From NCBI GenBank assembly GCA_035628995.1, contig DASPIR010000009.1, positions 1 to 64,000 of the forward strand: DNA of 64,000 nucleotides. Direction: 5' to 3'. The DNA is from Clostridia bacterium. GTDB lineage: Bacteria; Bacillota; Clostridia; Lutisporales; Lutisporaceae. The first letter of the stretch is position 1. Every line of letters begins with the position of its first letter. The notes under the pieces are model-generated. The model made no database searches, was not told the origin of the DNA, and saw only the letters and a list, made by a program, of their open reading frames with translations. The position numbers were made by a program, and so were the translations under genes. This document shows, piece by piece, positions 23,769 to 31,609 of the stretch.

Positions 23769-24560
23769 TTATTCAATTCTGTCCAAGGCTTTCAACATTC
23801 CATATATAATAGCCTGAGGTCTTGGTGGACAGCCCGGGATATAAACATCTACGGGTACAATGCAATCTATTCCGTTCCTGGTTGCATAGCTGTCCTTGAA
23901 GATACCCCCGCTGCATGCGCAAGCACCCACAGCTACTACAAGCTTGGGATCAGGGGCCGAATTATAGGTTTTTACAAGAGCCAGCTCCATATTCCTTGAA
24001 GCAGTTCCGGTAACCAGCAGCATATCAGCATGCCTCGGTGATGCAACGAAGTGAAGTCCGAACCTTTCCAAGTCATTAAACGGATTGTTCAATGCATTTA
24101 TTTCATAATCGCAGCCATTACACGAGCCGGCATCCACTTCTCTTATCTGCAGACTGCGTCCAAACATTTTTTTCACTTTCTCTTCAAGCTTCCTGCCTAT
24201 TATTTCATAGGATTCATCGGGTACTTCCCTGATTTCAACAGCTGGAGCTTCTTTTCGCAAGAAGACGCGGCTTTTTTCCGCCAATTCAAACTCACTTGTC
24301 ATTGTAACAGCCTTAGCCGGACATACTTCCTCGCAAAGGGAGCAAAATATGCACTCATCCAGGTTTATTCCTATTTCCTTCTTTTGCTTATCAAGCACTA
24401 TAGCAGCCGAAGGGCACCTGTTAACGCACTCCCCGCATGCTGTACAAACCGAAGCGTCTATAGCCGGCTTTCCCATGATAAATCCGGGGTTAGTGCGATC
24501 TTTAGGGTATTCATTTGTTAATCTGGGGTATTTAATTATTTTTTTCAATGTATCAAACAT
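23769..24560 (-). CDS. Fused ferredoxin and NuoB-like small subunit of an Ehr/hydrogenase-4-type complex
   Basis: The 263-residue protein is a fusion. Residues about 30-90 are a two-cluster ferredoxin (CTACGECVNRCP and CIFCSLCEEVCP), equivalent to HycF/NuoI. Residues about 140-263 are the HycG/HyfI/NuoB small subunit with the cluster ligands CNGC, GACACSGG and PGCPPRP all present. Electrons would pass from the ferredoxin clusters to the cluster next to the large subunit. It is separated from the large-subunit gene by 284 bp holding a MITE-like element, so its expression may differ. The ATG follows AAGGA. This fusion occurs in other Ehr-like and hydrogenase-4 loci. Confidence 0.88.
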   Translation of the reverse strand: MFDTLKKIIKYPRLTNEYPKDRTNPGFIMGKPAIDASVCTACGECVNRCPSAAIVLDKQKKEIGINLDECIFCSLCEEVCPAKAVTMTSEFELAEKSRVFLRKEAPAVEIREVPDESYEIIGRKLEEKVKKMFGRSLQIREVDAGSCNGCDYEINALNNPFNDLERFGLHFVASPRHADMLLVTGTASRNMELALVKTYNSAPDPKLVVAVGACACSGGIFKDSYATRNGIDCIVPVDVYIPGCPPRPQAIIYGMLKALDRIE

Positions 24561-24628
24561 AATTAATCATCCTTATCTACATATTTCATACCAAATCCAT
24601 TACATAATAATAGAATACTGCGACACAA

Positions 24629-24828
24629 GGGAACGGGTACCACTGAACACACGGATATTCCACGGATTCCTACGGAATTGCGCGGTTAATTTATATAATA
24701 TATAGCGACATTAGAGAGTTTTGATACTTACTCTTTATCAATTATTCTTATGTTTCAGAATATTTTTTCCCGCCGTGTATTTAGTGGATTTCAGTGTTTT
24801 TCCGAAGGAAAACCGTGGTGCCGTTCCC
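24629..24828. mobile_element. MITE-like element between two genes of the Ehr operon
   Basis: About 200 bp bounded by imperfect inverted ends: GGGAACGGGTACCAC on the left and GTGGTGCCGTTCCC on the right. The inside has repeated ACACGGA and TTCCACGGA blocks and no gene. No clear target-site duplication was seen. It separates the large-subunit gene from the small-subunit gene in an otherwise tightly packed operon. Confidence 0.45.
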
Positions 24829-24844
24829 TATTACTTAAGACGCA

Positions 24845-26425
24845 CTATAAGTCATTTCCCGCATATGACAAGTTGAAGCTTTTGTTTATCAACGGAAAAT
24901 CAGGTACCGTATTACCTTTGACTGCATGGCATAATGCCGGCCAATTGCAGAATGACGGGGTTCTGACCTTATACCTGAATATTGTGTTATTCTCGCCTGT
25001 CATCACCCAGTGAATGTTTTCCCCTCTGGGAGATTCAGTATAGCCTAATGCAAACTCATAAGGCTTAACTTCAGTTATGGTTGATAGTATTTCTCCTGCT
25101 TTCATTGCTTCAATAGCCTGTGTTATTATTTTTATTGCTTCGTAGCATTCTTCTATTTTTACATTCATTCTGCTGTTTACATCGCCATAATCATGTTCCG
25201 GTACATTGAATGCTGTACTCTCATACATTTCATAGGGGAACTCACGTCTTACATCGTATTTTATGCCCGAAGCACGGCCTGCCGGCCCGGTTGCATTCAT
25301 GTCAAGGGCAATGCTGTTTTTAAGCACTCCTGTATTCTCCACCCTATCTATAAAAAAGCTGCTTGCCTTAATTATCTTTACTGTATCATCAAGTTCTTTT
25401 TTTATTACCTTGATCATATCAATGATTTTCTTCTCATTACTGCTGATAAAGTCTTTTCTTAGCCCTCCCGGCTTGTTCACACTCCTCAAAAACCTGCTTC
25501 CGGTCAGTTCTTCTGTAAGCTGATACATCCAACCGCGCAGCATATTAAACTGTGAAGCCGCAAACCCATATGCCACATCGACGCATATCCCTGAAAGGTC
25601 GCCAAAGTGGCTTATCAGGCGCTCAGTCTCAGCAAATACAACTCTTGAATAACTGGCTCTTTGAGGTACCACAACCCCTGCAATTTTCTCTATAGCCTGG
25701 CAGAAGGCAAGGGAATTGGAGAAAGTCTCATCCCCGGATATCCTTTCGGATATGTAGAAGCATTTTTCTATGCTGGTGCCCTCGCTCAATTTTTCTATTC
25801 CTTTATGAACAAAATAAAGCTGTGCCTCAAGGTTTATTATTGGTTCCCCAGCTACGCTGAACCTGAAATGACCCGGCTCTATTATGCCTGCATGCACCGG
25901 GCCTACCGGAATTTCAAAAACCCCTGTTCCTTCGATTTTAACAAATTCCTGATCGTTTTTTTCAAAATGCGGCTTATGCTTGCTGTCAAAATCCTTCCTT
26001 AACGGATACATATTCTCCGGCCAATTGCCGTGAAATACAAAGCGCCTTGAATCCGGATGTCCTTCAGGAATGATACCAAATAAATCCCTTATTTCACGCT
26101 CGTAAAGGTGAGCCTGGTGTATATCTATTGTGATAGATTTAAATGTGGGATTTTCCGCTCCTACACCGTATTTCAGGATGAGAAAGAAGCCTTCCTCTTT
26201 AATTGCGAAAACGTAGTAAATCCCGTACTTACCGCAAATCGACCTCTCATCGTTTGCAAATAGGGATACCAGCGACCCTCCAACGCTGCACACATGTTTG
26301 CAGATATTCAGTATATTATCGCCGTTGACTTCCACATATATCTCATTTGAATTGTGAGTGCTGCAGCTGTATATATCATCTGGAAAACTCCCTGAAAGTT
26401 CATCTAATACTCTTTGAAACGACAT
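24845..26425 (-). CDS. Ehr-type large subunit (NuoCD/HyfG-like) lacking nickel ligands
   Basis: The 526-residue protein is a fused NuoC-NuoD-type subunit. Residues about 1-150 are NuoC-like (YEREIRDLFGIIPEGHPD then PENMYPLRKDF). The NuoD/hydrogenase part begins IPVGPVHAGIIEPGHFRF. The position of the first nickel motif (R-V-C-G-I-C in HycE) reads RISGDE here, and the second (D-P-C-Y-S-C) reads NLSYAG, so all four nickel-binding cysteines are gone. It therefore cannot hold a NiFe centre. This is the mark of Ehr complexes, relatives of both complex I and group 4 hydrogenases. It overlaps nothing and starts 2 nt from the next gene. Confidence 0.9.
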   Translation of the reverse strand: MSFQRVLDELSGSFPDDIYSCSTHNSNEIYVEVNGDNILNICKHVCSVGGSLVSLFANDERSICGKYGIYYVFAIKEEGFFLILKYGVGAENPTFKSITIDIHQAHLYEREIRDLFGIIPEGHPDSRRFVFHGNWPENMYPLRKDFDSKHKPHFEKNDQEFVKIEGTGVFEIPVGPVHAGIIEPGHFRFSVAGEPIINLEAQLYFVHKGIEKLSEGTSIEKCFYISERISGDETFSNSLAFCQAIEKIAGVVVPQRASYSRVVFAETERLISHFGDLSGICVDVAYGFAASQFNMLRGWMYQLTEELTGSRFLRSVNKPGGLRKDFISSNEKKIIDMIKVIKKELDDTVKIIKASSFFIDRVENTGVLKNSIALDMNATGPAGRASGIKYDVRREFPYEMYESTAFNVPEHDYGDVNSRMNVKIEECYEAIKIITQAIEAMKAGEILSTITEVKPYEFALGYTESPRGENIHWVMTGENNTIFRYKVRTPSFCNWPALCHAVKGNTVPDFPLINKSFNLSYAGNDL

Positions 26426-26426
26426 A

Positions 26427-27905
26427 TTATTGTCCCCCCATTATTATTCTGGACGCTGATTCAATAAGCATTGAAAGCGGCTTGGGCATATAAAGACCCA
26501 TCACAGCTATGACAACAAATAAAACGATTATTACGGCAGTGCCGGGATAGTTTATATCTCCCCGCACCATATTCTTGTTCTTGACTTCACCGAAAAACAT
26601 CATGAGCATTGATACTGCTATACCAACAAATACAAGACTTATAAGCAGTATCAGCATTATTCCGAGTGCAGTGTGATCAGCATCAAAGAAAGCAATTATT
26701 ATATTCAATTCACTTGCAAACACGCTGAAGGGCGGCATACCTGCAATAGCAAACAAACCAAGGAGAAATGCAGTGCCGGTAATCGGGAGTATCCTAAGTA
26801 ATCCGGTTACCCTGGAAATCTCCTTTGTCTTATATTTCAGATACACATTCCCTGATGAAAGGAAAAGCATTGATTTCGTGAATGCATGATTTACCATATG
26901 AAACAGCGCCCCGAATACAGCAATTGGTGTAAATGCCCCAAAGCCCAAGGCTATAATACCCATGTGCTCAATGCTGGAGTATGCAAGAAGACGCTTATAG
27001 TCTCTTTGTCTGAGAATGAATAAGGCTGCTGTTGCAATTGATAAGAAACCTGCAATCAGAAACAGCCTTCCAGTATAAGCAGTGCTCCCAAGACTCTTAT
27101 TTACAATTATTGTCACTCTGATTATTCCATACATTGCGCTGTTGAGTAAAACCCCTGAAAGCAGGGCGCTGATAGGTGCCGGCGCCTGGCTGTGTGCATC
27201 AGGCAGCCATGTATGCATTGGAGCAAGTCCCACCTTTGTGCCGTATCCCACAAATATAAATATAAATGCTATTTTCAGTATACTCGCATCAAGCTTGGCC
27301 GCGTTTTGATTAAGAAACAACCAGTTCAACTGAATGCTTGGATTATGAAAAACACTGGCTGAAGCGTAGTTTATGAAAACAATTCCTAAAAGCGCAAGTG
27401 CAATACCAACTGAACAAATTATTACATACTTCCATGCAGCTTCTATTGAGTGCTTGTTATTATAGAACCCTACCAGAAATACGGAGGCCAGCGTAGTGGC
27501 TTCTATTGCTATCCACATCAGTCCCAAGTTCTGAGTAGTAACAACCAGCACCATTGTGAATATGAATGTATATATCAATATGTAAAATAGCTTAATGCTC
27601 CTCAGTTCAATGGCTTTATGCTTATACTCCTCATTAAGATATCCTATTGAATAAATACATACCAGAGAGCCAAGTATCAATATTATATCCAATAAAAGCA
27701 CACTTAGGGAATCTATATAGAAATAACCCGCAAGCTCTGGGAAGCTTAGATTTCCAAAGGCAAGAACCCCATTGGTTATATATATCGAAGCAAGCAGCAG
27801 CAGTACTGCCCCTGTCGCATTTATCGCGTGTAATACGCCCTTCTTATTTGTTAATAAGAAAAGCAGTGCGAATATTAACGGAATTAGCAATGCAAAGATT
27901 TCCAT
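26427..27905 (-). CDS. HyfF-like antiporter-type membrane subunit
   Basis: The 492-residue protein is a NuoN/NuoL/HyfF-type membrane subunit with about 14 predicted helices. The conserved parts include WIAIEATTLASVFLVGFYN, the lysine-bearing KVGLAPMHTWLPDAHSQAPA (about residue 225) and LLAYSSIEHMGIIALG. These form the proton or sodium channel of the complex. It is one of two such subunits here. The ATG follows GAGGGG and the gene is 3 nt downstream of the HyfE-like gene. Confidence 0.93.
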   Translation of the reverse strand: MEIFALLIPLIFALLFLLTNKKGVLHAINATGAVLLLLASIYITNGVLAFGNLSFPELAGYFYIDSLSVLLLDIILILGSLVCIYSIGYLNEEYKHKAIELRSIKLFYILIYTFIFTMVLVVTTQNLGLMWIAIEATTLASVFLVGFYNNKHSIEAAWKYVIICSVGIALALLGIVFINYASASVFHNPSIQLNWLFLNQNAAKLDASILKIAFIFIFVGYGTKVGLAPMHTWLPDAHSQAPAPISALLSGVLLNSAMYGIIRVTIIVNKSLGSTAYTGRLFLIAGFLSIATAALFILRQRDYKRLLAYSSIEHMGIIALGFGAFTPIAVFGALFHMVNHAFTKSMLFLSSGNVYLKYKTKEISRVTGLLRILPITGTAFLLGLFAIAGMPPFSVFASELNIIIAFFDADHTALGIMLILLISLVFVGIAVSMLMMFFGEVKNKNMVRGDINYPGTAVIIVLFVVIAVMGLYMPKPLSMLIESASRIIMGGQ

Positions 27906-27908
27906 GTC

Positions 27909-28565
27909 TTATCCCCTCAAGTTCCTCAATTTGTTTAAATCAATCGAATCAAAATTCTCATTTATTTTAAATACCAATACACCCATTATCATAACTGCTG
28001 TAAGCAAATCGACAAGTATGCCAGCATCAATAATTATAGGCATTCCATGGGTAATAAACAATGCAGCGGTAAACAAACCGTTTTCTATAACCAGAAAACC
28101 TATTATCTGGCTAATAGCCTTTTTCCTGTTTATCATAAAGAATAGACCTATCAACATAACTGAAATTGAATTTACTAGATAAAGCCTTATGCTGCTGTCA
28201 TTAATGCCCTTAACCGCAGAAACAGAAAAGTATGATAATATTACCAGTCCGAAACAGATCAATACAGCTAAAGGTATATTCAGAAAAAAGCCCTTCTCAA
28301 CCTTGTGCTCGACTTTAGCAGCAGTACCTCTGAGAAGCTTTGGAATATATATAACCTTTAGTGCGATTATCAAGCCGCATACTACAAGAATGTCGATCTT
28401 TCCCTCCTTGAAGAGGTTCTGGATGCCGAGCAAGCCGGCGGCTATAGCAATAAGAAGCGACTGAATCCTGAAGGTCTTGATGCAGGAGTCCACCCTCTTG
28501 TTTGCCACCAGCATAAATGATGATAACAATATAAGAATTGATAATATACTCAAATAGTCCTTCAT
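27909..28565 (-). CDS. HyfE-like membrane subunit
   Basis: The 218-residue protein is a HyfE-type (NuoK-related) membrane protein with about six helices, e.g. LSILSILILLSSFMLVANK, LYLVNSISVMLIGLFFMI and DAGILVDLLTAVMIMGVLV with conserved acidic residues inside helices as in NuoK. It is part of the membrane arm. Its start lies 3 nt after the preceding gene ends and follows GGGGAGG. Confidence 0.88.
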   Translation of the reverse strand: MKDYLSILSILILLSSFMLVANKRVDSCIKTFRIQSLLIAIAAGLLGIQNLFKEGKIDILVVCGLIIALKVIYIPKLLRGTAAKVEHKVEKGFFLNIPLAVLICFGLVILSYFSVSAVKGINDSSIRLYLVNSISVMLIGLFFMINRKKAISQIIGFLVIENGLFTAALFITHGMPIIIDAGILVDLLTAVMIMGVLVFKINENFDSIDLNKLRNLRG

Positions 28566-28567
28566 GC

Positions 28568-29518
28568 TTACCTCCCCACAATGAAATATTCCGCAAATCC
28601 AAGAAAAGAAAGTATAAACGAAATAGCTGCCAGATTCGGAACGCTGAAAAGCCTAAGCTTTACCGTACTGATTTCAGCAATAGCAACAAGCACTGATATA
28701 AATATGACCTTAGCTAAATACAGCAAAAGTGATACGATCACGACCATTGCAGGATTGACCATATGTATTAATGCATCAAGCGGAATAAACAAGTTTGCAA
28801 GCAAGGTTATAAGTATCAGCTGTTTTATTGATGCTCCCAGTTCCATGAGTGCCAGGTGCTTTCCTGAATATTCAAGGATCATTGCCTCATGCACCATAGT
28901 CAACTCCAAATGAGTTGCAGGGTCATCTATAGGTATTCTTGACGTCTCTGCCATCAGAATGATAAAAACAGCCAGAAAAACCAATACATAAACAGGTTGA
29001 ATAATCAAAGGGCCAAGCTGTGTGGCATTAACCATCATCGTATATGCAGAAGTTGATTTTGCCATAAGTCCTATAGTGAACAGGGACACAAGCATGGAAG
29101 GCTCAAATATTGAGGAAATCATCATTTCCCTGCTGCTTCCCATACCTCCAAAGGTACTTCCTGTATCAAGAGCAGCCAGTGTCAGAAAGAACCTGCCCAG
29201 AGCCAGTATGTAAATCGATAGTATTATATCTCCGGCAAAGCTCACCGGTTGTATAAGCGTTGTTACAGGGATTAAGAGCGCCGCGCATAGGTTGGCTGTA
29301 AATATTACATAAGGCGCAGCCTTAAAAATCCACGATGAAGTTTCAGATACCACAGTATCCTTTTTCATGAGTTTAAATATATCATAATAAAGTTGGAGCA
29401 CTGGTGCGCCTTTTCTCTTTTGTGAAAGAGCCTTGATTTTCTTTATTATGCCATTCACTAAAGGCGCAACACATATCATAACTAACAATTGTATCAATAT
29501 GTAAACAATACTGTCCAT
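28568..29518 (-). CDS. HyfC-like (NuoH-type) membrane subunit
   Basis: The 316-residue protein is a NuoH/HycD/HyfC-type membrane subunit that connects the peripheral arm to the membrane arm. Typical segments are RKGAPVLQLYYDIFKLMKKD, DTGSTFGGMGSSREMMISS, and the acidic cluster RIPIDDPATHLELTMVHEAM followed by ILEYSG. Eight helices are expected. The ATG at 29518 follows AAGGAG. Confidence 0.92.
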   Translation of the reverse strand: MDSIVYILIQLLVMICVAPLVNGIIKKIKALSQKRKGAPVLQLYYDIFKLMKKDTVVSETSSWIFKAAPYVIFTANLCAALLIPVTTLIQPVSFAGDIILSIYILALGRFFLTLAALDTGSTFGGMGSSREMMISSIFEPSMLVSLFTIGLMAKSTSAYTMMVNATQLGPLIIQPVYVLVFLAVFIILMAETSRIPIDDPATHLELTMVHEAMILEYSGKHLALMELGASIKQLILITLLANLFIPLDALIHMVNPAMVVIVSLLLYLAKVIFISVLVAIAEISTVKLRLFSVPNLAAISFILSFLGFAEYFIVGR

Positions 29519-29563
29519 TTTAATTCTCCTTAAATGTTTCTGTAATAAAACACATCAACGCGT

Positions 29564-31609
29564 TTAGCTTAGGACGTAATAAACCAACAGAGCAATCATT
29601 GTAACAAATATATAGATGAGATATGCATGTATGCTGCCTGTTTGTATGGAATGCCTTGTTCTTTTTGAAAACTGAGCAAATAAGCGTATTATAGGTGCAT
29701 AAAAGTACAGTTCAAACAGAGATTGTGTAGACACTATATATTTGATTGACTTATGATAATACGGCGATGCACCTTCCTCTGTCTTTATTTCTCTACCAGG
29801 CATATAAAGCGGCTTCAAAACAATACGCAGCGGTTTTGAATATCCCGTAGCACTATACTGCATCCGTGGGTTTAGTCCAACAAATCCACAGTCCCATGTG
29901 CCATATTTTCTTTCTTTTGAATGACCTCCTGCCAATTTTACCAATATAAAGGTCACACTTGCGATGACAACCCCCATAATAACAACCGCAATTGGTGAAA
30001 TCGCGTTTTTATTTATACTTAAAGGATAATAAACGAAAAATGCTCCTCCTTGCAGATCGGATATAAGCGTTGTGCCTATCATTTCAAGGTTTACCCTGTC
30101 AATAAGTCTCAAGGCCAATGTTGGGAAAATACCCAGTATGACACATAATAGAGTAAGCAAGCCTTGCCCTATTCTCATGCTTGCTGGAACCTCCCGCGCA
30201 CTTTCTGCATGCTCACTTCTGGGCAATCCCAGAAAAGATATTCCTATCAGTTTTACAAAGCAAGCCGCTGCTAATGCACCTGCCATAGCAAGTGCCGCCA
30301 CGGTCAGCATGGATATGAGGTTTATTGCCGAGGTGTTTGAGCCTAAACTCATAAATAATGACTGATAAGTCATCCACTCGCTGGCAAAACCATTAAAAGG
30401 AGGTATTGCAGATATCGAAAGAGCTGCTATCAGAAAGAGGAGTCCGGTAAAGGGCATCTTTTTTATGAGACCTCCCAATTCCTCCATATCCTTGGTGTGA
30501 GTTGCATAATGTATTGAGCCGGCCCCCAGGAAAAGTGCACCTTTGAATAGTGTATGGTTCAAAAGGTGAAAAAGCGCAGCCATCATGGAAAGACCGCATA
30601 AAACCATATTCCCGCTGGAGTATGCCATAAAGGAAATACCCATTCCCATCAATATTATTCCTATATTTTCTATACTGCTATAAGCAAGAAGCCGTTTGAT
30701 GTTGTGCTCCATTAGAGCATAAGCCACTCCCAGCACTGCAGAGACAGCCCCGGCAGTAAGTATCAAAACACCCCACCACATAGGCTTGTCCGTAAAAGAA
30801 ATAAATGCAAAACGGAGAATTCCATATATAGCGGTTTTTATCATTATTCCTGACATAAGGGCCGATACATTGCTTGGAGCTGCCGGATGCGCATAAGGAA
30901 GCCATACATGAAAGGGAATCACACCGGCTTTTGTACCGAAGCCAATCAGAAGCAAAACAAATACTATACTCTTGATACTTGCCGGGACAGCACCAATATT
31001 AACTCCAATCTCAAGGCTGTGGGTGTACTTGTACGTTAACATGAAAGCTATCGTTAAGAAGGCTGTACCGATATGAGTCATTATTAGGTATAGTGTCCCT
31101 GCTTTTCTGTTTTCTGCATGCTCGCCTTCAAATATGACCAGGAAGTATGATAATAAAGACATTAGCTCCCATGATATCAGGAAGCCTATGACATTGCCTG
31201 ATGTCATCACAAATATCATCGATAATATAAAAGTGTTATATAAAAAATTAAACATTCCTACGTTTCTCTTGTTGTAATAATGCGAAATATACCCTATCGA
31301 GTATATTGACACTGCCAATACCAGAATTGAAAGAGCAAGTATGAAAAAAGCCGAAAGCTTGTCTATATACAGATTGAAGGCTATATGAGGCACAGACATG
31401 GAAAAGCTTGCAATGACAGTCTTCTGTGTTCCTTCCACGATATTGGCGATAGAAAGCCAGATACCCGCAGCTGCGGCTATAGAGCTTAATAGGTTAGATA
31501 GTATATTGCAGATTTTATGTTTATTATAGAAAACAAGCGATGTTAGCGCGCTTGCAGTATAAAAAACCAACATAGCTGCAGCTAATGGTCCGTTATTAAT
31601 TATGTACAT
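29564..31609 (-). CDS. HyfB-like (NuoL-type) membrane subunit
   Basis: The 681-residue protein is the large antiporter-like subunit (HyfB/HycC type) with about 16 helices. Evidence: WELMSLLSYFLVIFEGEHAE (glutamate in helix 5, residue about 150), GTKAGVIPFHVWLPYAHPAA (about 223) and KRLLAYSSIENIGIILMG. A hydrophilic tail segment contains RKYGTWDCGFVGLNPRMQYS, also typical of HyfB/HycC. It is the first gene of the operon. The ATG follows GGAGG. Confidence 0.93.
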   Translation of the reverse strand: MYIINNGPLAAAMLVFYTASALTSLVFYNKHKICNILSNLLSSIAAAAGIWLSIANIVEGTQKTVIASFSMSVPHIAFNLYIDKLSAFFILALSILVLAVSIYSIGYISHYYNKRNVGMFNFLYNTFILSMIFVMTSGNVIGFLISWELMSLLSYFLVIFEGEHAENRKAGTLYLIMTHIGTAFLTIAFMLTYKYTHSLEIGVNIGAVPASIKSIVFVLLLIGFGTKAGVIPFHVWLPYAHPAAPSNVSALMSGIMIKTAIYGILRFAFISFTDKPMWWGVLILTAGAVSAVLGVAYALMEHNIKRLLAYSSIENIGIILMGMGISFMAYSSGNMVLCGLSMMAALFHLLNHTLFKGALFLGAGSIHYATHTKDMEELGGLIKKMPFTGLLFLIAALSISAIPPFNGFASEWMTYQSLFMSLGSNTSAINLISMLTVAALAMAGALAAACFVKLIGISFLGLPRSEHAESAREVPASMRIGQGLLTLLCVILGIFPTLALRLIDRVNLEMIGTTLISDLQGGAFFVYYPLSINKNAISPIAVVIMGVVIASVTFILVKLAGGHSKERKYGTWDCGFVGLNPRMQYSATGYSKPLRIVLKPLYMPGREIKTEEGASPYYHKSIKYIVSTQSLFELYFYAPIIRLFAQFSKRTRHSIQTGSIHAYLIYIFVTMIALLVYYVLS

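Follow-up and report, generated by a model that had tools for sequence, protein, structure and literature searches.

Fixed replacement of the nickel ligands in a hydrogenase-related (Ehr) complex of a Clostridia bacterium, and what the complex may do instead

What can a complex built like a hydrogenase do once its metal center has lost every nickel ligand? The question is raised by a six-gene operon of a Clostridia bacterium of the Lutisporaceae, located at positions 23769-31609 on the minus strand, (-), of contig DASPIR010000009.1 (assembly GCA_035628995.1), within a stretch of 64,000 nucleotides (positions 1 to 64,000) that we call the window. Energy-converting hydrogenase-related (Ehr) complexes lack the residues coordinating nickel and iron and are of unknown function (PMC6349859; PMC10284858; see also PMC7894505), and the HydDB classifier was trained to exclude them as homologs that do not metabolize H2 (PMC5037454). 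An earlier note on this DNA had placed a hydrogenase-4-like operon here, and its coordinates proved exact: six minus-strand open reading frames fill the interval, and the Pfam and NCBIfam matches agree. Its statement that the Ehr class has no known reaction likewise agrees with the literature (PMC6349859; PMC10284858; PMC5037454). Our results indicate that the loss of the nickel ligands is fixed across a clade, and we suggest that the former metal site now serves a different acceptor.

The large subunit (gene 5, 24845..26425 (-)) is a protein of 526 residues with 30 kDa and 49 kDa domains and no C-terminal extension (Pfam Complex1_30kDa and Complex1_49kDa), and its best solved relative by sequence is HycE of Escherichia coli (PDB 7z0s, chain E; phmmer, E=7e-90). 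In this alignment, which is free of gaps at both places, RVCGIC of HycE faces RISGDE (residues 228-233, 25727..25744 (-)) and DPCYSC faces NLSYAG (residues 518-523, 24857..24874 (-)), with S230, E233, S520 and G523 at the four nickel-ligand positions. Neither the RxCGxC nor the DPCxxC motif of group 4 [NiFe] hydrogenases is present, and the protein stops three residues beyond NLSYAG, ending in NDL. The same replacement had been read off in the earlier note, and none of the cysteines that it allowed for as a counter-case appears at the four positions. We compared 19 loci from other genomes and surveyed 398 genomes of the phylum and 391 of the class. ERISGDE and the end NKSFNLSYAGNDL-stop recur in 18 of the 19 loci, the exception being a Thermincola protein with three cysteines; the replacement is therefore not an accident of chance or sequencing error.

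Among 31 aligned cysteine-free proteins, E227, R228, S230, G231, D232 and E233 are invariant, and the new C-terminus (residues 509-526) is the most conserved of 509 segments of 18 residues, which argues that the former nickel site is under strong selection and not decaying. Only ten positions (S230, D232, E233, D283, K486, N518, S520, G523, N524 and L526) are shared without exception by these 31 proteins and found in none of the 22 four-cysteine proteins compared. Eight of them sit in the two former nickel loops; outside these lie D283 (25577..25579 (-)), which is Gly in all four-cysteine relatives and Asp in NuoD/Nqo4 and MbhL, and K486 (24968..24970 (-)), which is Lys in Nqo4 and MbhL, in no four-cysteine relative and not in formate hydrogenlyase (FHL). 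The second-sphere residues of hydrogenases R467, H472, P490, S491 and E183 are kept.

The large subunit is thus homologous to those of group 4 hydrogenases and to NuoD, has no metal-binding cysteines, and is encoded together with NuoH-like and antiporter-like subunits, as the literature defines the known Ehr kind. The operon therefore fits the Ehr class by that published definition, in line with the earlier description of a hydrogenase-derived complex with its metal-center ligands gone and a Hyf-like membrane arm. The class was reportedly published by Marreiros in 2013 (as cited in PMC6349859 and PMC10284858), and Coppi 2004/2005 is also said to be a source for it. Our comparison with Ehr complexes was with their descriptions and not with the Marreiros 2013 sequences; in that literature we met neither the RISGDE/NLSYAGNDL signature, nor a single clade with two subtypes, nor the ten-position signature.

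The relatives are of several types. Type (a) is the cysteine-free type of the window. Type (b), probably HydDB group 4f, has four cysteines, its second motif reads ELCYxCxDR, and its proteins end there without a tail to be cleaved; in its Thermincola member one cysteine is lost (ELFYSC). Type (c) is a second type without the cysteine pairs, with ER[IV][AS][CG]E[SC] and FNMSYSENDR, and with AKGE or VKGE in place of PRGE (L079 in genome G006, L115 in G459 and L116 in G720), while type (d) comprises true FHL-type proteins with DPCYSC and a C-terminal tail. In a careful tree built without the motif columns, types (a) and (c) group together (94/95) and then adjoin type (b) (90/88), with type (d) outermost at moderate support (88/84). 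As placed by this tree, the cysteine-free proteins form one clade beside the four-cysteine group. A quick first tree with fewer rows had put the cysteine-free clade outside FHL and the four-cysteine type; it was set aside in favor of the careful tree and of a loop insertion, both of which place FHL outside.

This insertion lies between transmembrane helices (TM) 5 and 6 of the HyfC/NuoH-like membrane anchor (gene 2, 316 residues, 28568..29518 (-); Pfam NADHdh; phmmer to HycD, 7z0s chain D, E=6e-45), where the loop IPIDDPATHLELTMVHE (residues 195-211, 28886..28936 (-)) carries an Ehr-type signature with three inserted residues. Its pattern, PxDxPxTHLELTMxHE, is common to the cysteine-free, four-cysteine and NMSYSENDR types, and HyfC, HycD, the genome's own NuoH and MbhM have the loop PFDxxEAEQEL, three residues shorter. 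The loop is an independent character agreeing with the careful tree, and together they suggest that a single loss of the nickel ligands, in a lineage akin to the four-cysteine proteins, is the probable history. In the sulfane sulfur reductase MBS, the corresponding loop lines the catalytic chamber (PMC7684303). A relative is present in 51 of the 398 phylum genomes and 10 of the 391 class genomes, and the operon in none of 5 sampled members of the genus and none of 13 of the family; this sporadic spread probably reflects horizontal transfer. Wherever a relative's contig reaches across the whole operon, all six genes are there and in the same order.

HypD is required to make the NiFe(CN)2CO group of [NiFe] hydrogenases. 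In the window's genome, which is 99% complete, no HypD scored above the cut-off of 25 bits (the best match, in a frame of 744 residues, reached 19.1), and the family control of the search gave a signal. Maturation of a [NiFe] site is therefore not possible there, and H2 production by such a site is, as judged from the genome sequence, excluded for this complex independently of the motif. For H2 the genome carries [FeFe]-hydrogenase-type domains. Of the 12 other cysteine-free carriers in the phylum sample, six likewise have no HypD above the cut-off and six have it, as do seven further signature-bearing species of genus g296. We considered whether lack of HypD characterizes the clade and rejected this, since six of the first 13 carriers and the seven g296 species have the gene; the absence only shows that the complex does without HypD. 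Relatives with four (or three) cysteines also occur in genomes lacking HypD (L063 in G361, L078 in G124, L016/L087 in G211); the presence of the cysteines is thus no guarantee that a [NiFe] site works.

The last gene (gene 6, 263 residues, 23769..24560 (-)) fuses a HyfH-like ferredoxin domain for two [4Fe-4S] clusters to a HyfI/NuoB-like small subunit (Pfam Fer4 and Oxidored_q6; HycG, 7z0s chain G, E=1e-41). Its iron-sulfur ligands, which the earlier note had called intact, are invariant in 25 cysteine-free relatives: two CxxCxxCxxxC motifs, each followed by proline in the window (residues 38-81, 24318..24449 (-)), and the cysteines of GSCNGC, GAC and PGC. GSCNGCDYEI (residues 145-154, 24099..24128 (-)) holds the proximal-cluster cysteines at the CxxC spacing of hydrogenases, not as the CC of complex I. 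In Mbh, Glu21 has been assigned as the proton donor and the Lys24-Asp379 pair to energy coupling (PMC11228991). Alignment to MbhL (6cfw, chain L) gives as their counterparts the invariant residues E183 (25877..25879 (-)), H186 and D525, whereas N237 stands in place of His75, the other proton residue of Mbh. As aligned, Mbh-type proton-coupling residues are kept, and the cluster features of the MBS and complex I types are absent. The channel residues had been described as intact in both antiporter-like subunits. A family alignment confirms this in full for the HyfB-like subunit (E148, K227, K258, K356 and E411); the HyfF-like subunit has E135, K224, K344 and E399, but its TM8 lysine position holds N255, matching the Asn of E. 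coli HyfF.

Taking these features together, we think it somewhat more probable than not that the cysteine-free Ehr member is a ferredoxin-oxidizing membrane redox pump that reduces an acceptor in a rebuilt polar pocket. Electrons from reduced ferredoxin would enter at the fused domain's two [4Fe-4S] clusters, run on to the proximal [4Fe-4S] cluster in the NuoB-like portion and end on a two-electron acceptor, probably small and polar, bound at the former NiFe place. S230, D232, E233, N518, S520, N524, D283 and K486 would make up the new lining of the pocket, in which E183, R467 and H472 are retained, and protonation there would be passed via E183-H186-D525 and the NuoH-like loop to the NuoH-like and the two antiporter-like subunits, which would then move ions outward. 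As judged from the sequence, protons at a NiFe site are not what is reduced. While the sequences directly show the composition, the replaced residues and their conservation, the clade and the missing HypD, the direction, electron donor, coupling and polar acceptor are what we infer. It would be tempting to go further and regard the pocket as a new type of active site, lined by oxygen and nitrogen from the same eight residues and binding either a polar substrate or a metal ion of the hard kind, a proposal that we advance tentatively and hold to be rather unlikely. If true, such a site would add a fourth terminal reaction to the three of complex I-type pumps (with H+, quinone and sulfur), and the second subtype (ER[IV][AS][CG]E[SC], NMSYSENDR) would hold a related but different site.

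Several points weigh against a ferredoxin-driven pump with a polar acceptor. Only the ferredoxin domain suggests ferredoxin as donor. No gene for the acceptor or a partner could be pinned down: a search by neighborhood was abandoned since flanking genes differ by lineage (lysS/greA, lexA-hfq-miaA, uvrA-uvrC, maf-radC), and outside the six genes only a TetR-family regulator recurs, in part of the clade, directly upstream in many relatives and not in the window (L003:3225-3776, L011:3247-3798, L012:2962-3558, L013:3251-3796). Modeled by itself with AlphaFold, the large subunit has a mean pLDDT of 69, with values below 50 for residues 150-210 and 489-526, the pocket; the model is too poor there to judge whether the ten residues line one cavity, so its geometry was left unused. 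Foldseek with this model found HycE first and complex I next, at TM-scores below 0.5 by query length that reflect the poor model. Finally, late menaquinone genes in the window's genome make a quinone a candidate acceptor in this organism.

These genes, a menaquinone-type UbiD decarboxylase (TIGR03701 above cut-off), an MqnP-like UbiA and a UbiX-like flavoprotein with an ABC transporter adjoining, make a ferredoxin:menaquinone oxidoreductase the main rival, in which a membrane quinone would be reduced near the proximal cluster as in 11-subunit complex I. The genes lie at L118:4559-9932 (contig C3, 44.5-49.9 kb), and the transporter includes an NMT1-like binding protein. MqnA/D and MenD were not found in the window's genome, which may import a precursor and make quinone; the idea that it lacks quinone was dropped once MqnL- and MqnP-like genes were found, UbiA alone being ambiguous. 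Elsewhere, carriers G003 and G155 have MqnA/D, and G255, G206 and G181 have MenD. Kinship with NuoD also favors a quinone, as do D283 and K486, which match Asp139 and the Lys of RxKxR in Nqo4 and are absent from the four-cysteine relatives and FHL. However, I182 and G231 occupy the places of the Nqo4 quinone ligands His38 and Tyr87, there is no tandem CC as in the N2 cluster of complex I, and the signature of the pocket has a polar character. Among 13 cysteine-free genomes checked, UbiA, MqnA/D, MenD and HypD were all below cut-off in G156 (100% complete) and G182, where self-made menaquinone is consequently unlikely; in the type (c) genomes G459 and G720 (100% complete) neither HypD nor UbiA was found. 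Moreover, a complex I of 11 subunits, lacking NuoE, F and G, is encoded elsewhere in the window's genome (L023:7825-17598, contig C26), which so has two complex I-type pumps along with Rnf (L119). On balance we regard quinone reduction as unlikely, if worth serious attention.

The remaining rivals fare worse. Reduction of sulfur (polysulfide) at the proximal [4Fe-4S] cluster has a precedent in the MBS of Pyrococcus furiosus, which belongs to this superfamily, is proven to pump at the expense of ferredoxin and has lost nickel ligands (PMC7684303), but MBS needs a proximal cluster with three cysteines, its motif being shortened, and a pocket that is hydrophobic and has no proton path (PMC7684303), whereas the operon keeps the four-ligand hydrogenase spacing, a polar signature and the Glu proton residue; we consider it quite improbable. 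That all catalytic ligands are lost, with no acceptor known, could also mean that the hydrophilic arm is without catalysis and the complex only an ion antiporter or sensor. It would then be hard to see why conservation in the protein peaks in the loops that lost the ligands and in the new C-terminus, and why the electron-carrying clusters are all kept, and such a pseudo-enzyme seems very improbable. Least of all do we expect a hydrogenase holding nickel or another metal on other ligands: R467, H472, P490, S491 and E183 of the second sphere persist, yet the four cysteines are gone, HypD is absent from the genome, which has [FeFe]-hydrogenase-type domains for H2, and HydDB treats Ehr as not metabolizing H2 (PMC5037454).

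As judged from sequence, the cysteine-free clade as a whole does not work on H2, and neither quinone nor sulfur chemistry of the MBS type looks likely to be the reaction of Ehr complexes in general. The ten residues named here should decide the reaction, so mutation can address the question. What is new here is the replacement fixed in 31 relatives with its highly conserved C-terminus, the ten-position signature, the single clade with its shared NuoH-type loop, the absence of HypD, and the retention of Mbh-type coupling residues without the cluster features of MBS or complex I. That one clade arose beside a four-cysteine group with the same NuoH-like loop also bears on how complex I could lose nickel and yet keep ion pumping.

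The operon encodes a complete HyfB-C-E-F-G-(H+I)-like complex, transcribed in the order HyfB-, HyfC-, HyfE-, HyfF-, HyfG- and fused HyfH-HyfI-like. Besides the genes described above, it comprises the HyfB/HycC-like antiporter-like subunit (gene 1, 681 residues, 29564..31609 (-); NCBIfam PRK06521, hydrogenase 4 subunit B, 676 bits, above cut-off), a HyfE-like membrane subunit whose C-terminal part is NuoK-like (gene 3, 218 residues, 27909..28565 (-); PRK11492, E=1.4e-25) and the HyfF-like antiporter-like subunit (gene 4, 492 residues, 26427..27905 (-); PRK06458, 482 bits). A consensus scan, the only basis for these sites, places a strong terminator-like hairpin with a stem of 14 pairs behind lysS and ahead of gene 1 (31744-31711 (-)) and a weak one behind gene 6 (23688-23673 (-)), so the six genes look like a single transcription unit of their own. 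Rfam gave no matches around the operon. The gap from the stop codon of the large subunit to gene 6 measures 284 bp (10-35 bp in several relatives), of which 221 nucleotides (24615-24835) fold as one long imperfect hairpin (z -3.7) resembling a small inserted mobile element.

Compared with known systems, the operon shares with Ehr complexes a group 4 hydrogenase-like make-up without metal-center ligands. The four-cysteine relatives have the same six genes, the THLELTM loop and GPxHAGIIEPGHF; they differ in keeping RxCGxC and C-x-x-C, in having Gly at 283 and in ending in Arg. Among solved structures, FHL/hydrogenase-4 (HycE, HyfG; PDB 7z0s) comes closest in sequence for four subunits (large, small, NuoH-like and HyfB-like), but it has four nickel cysteines, a C-terminal tail removed on maturation, HyfD and formate dehydrogenase partners, and a PFDxAEAEQEL loop without the insertion. 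Mbh of P. furiosus (PDB 6cfw) resembles it in Glu21 and Asp379, kept as E183 and D525, and in Asp/Lys at 283/486, while possessing a NiFe site and an Mrp Na+/H+ module. In the MBS of P. furiosus (PDB 6u8y), also a ferredoxin-driven pump, the nickel ligands are reduced, but two nickel-site cysteines remain; it has a hydrophobic pocket, an Mrp module and, unlike the hydrogenase-like GSCNGC here, a three-ligand proximal cluster in a shortened motif (PMC7684303). The 11-subunit complex I of the same genome has the same fold, with 30+49 kDa, NuoB, NuoH and NuoL/M/N-like subunits, and D283 and K486 are as in Nqo4; the operon lacks Nqo4 His38 and Tyr87 (I182 and G231) and the CC motif (CNGC), and its membrane subunits are of the hydrogenase-4 type. 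By its residues the complex thus stands apart from the defining features of group 4 hydrogenases, complex I and MBS, though it may pump like any of them.

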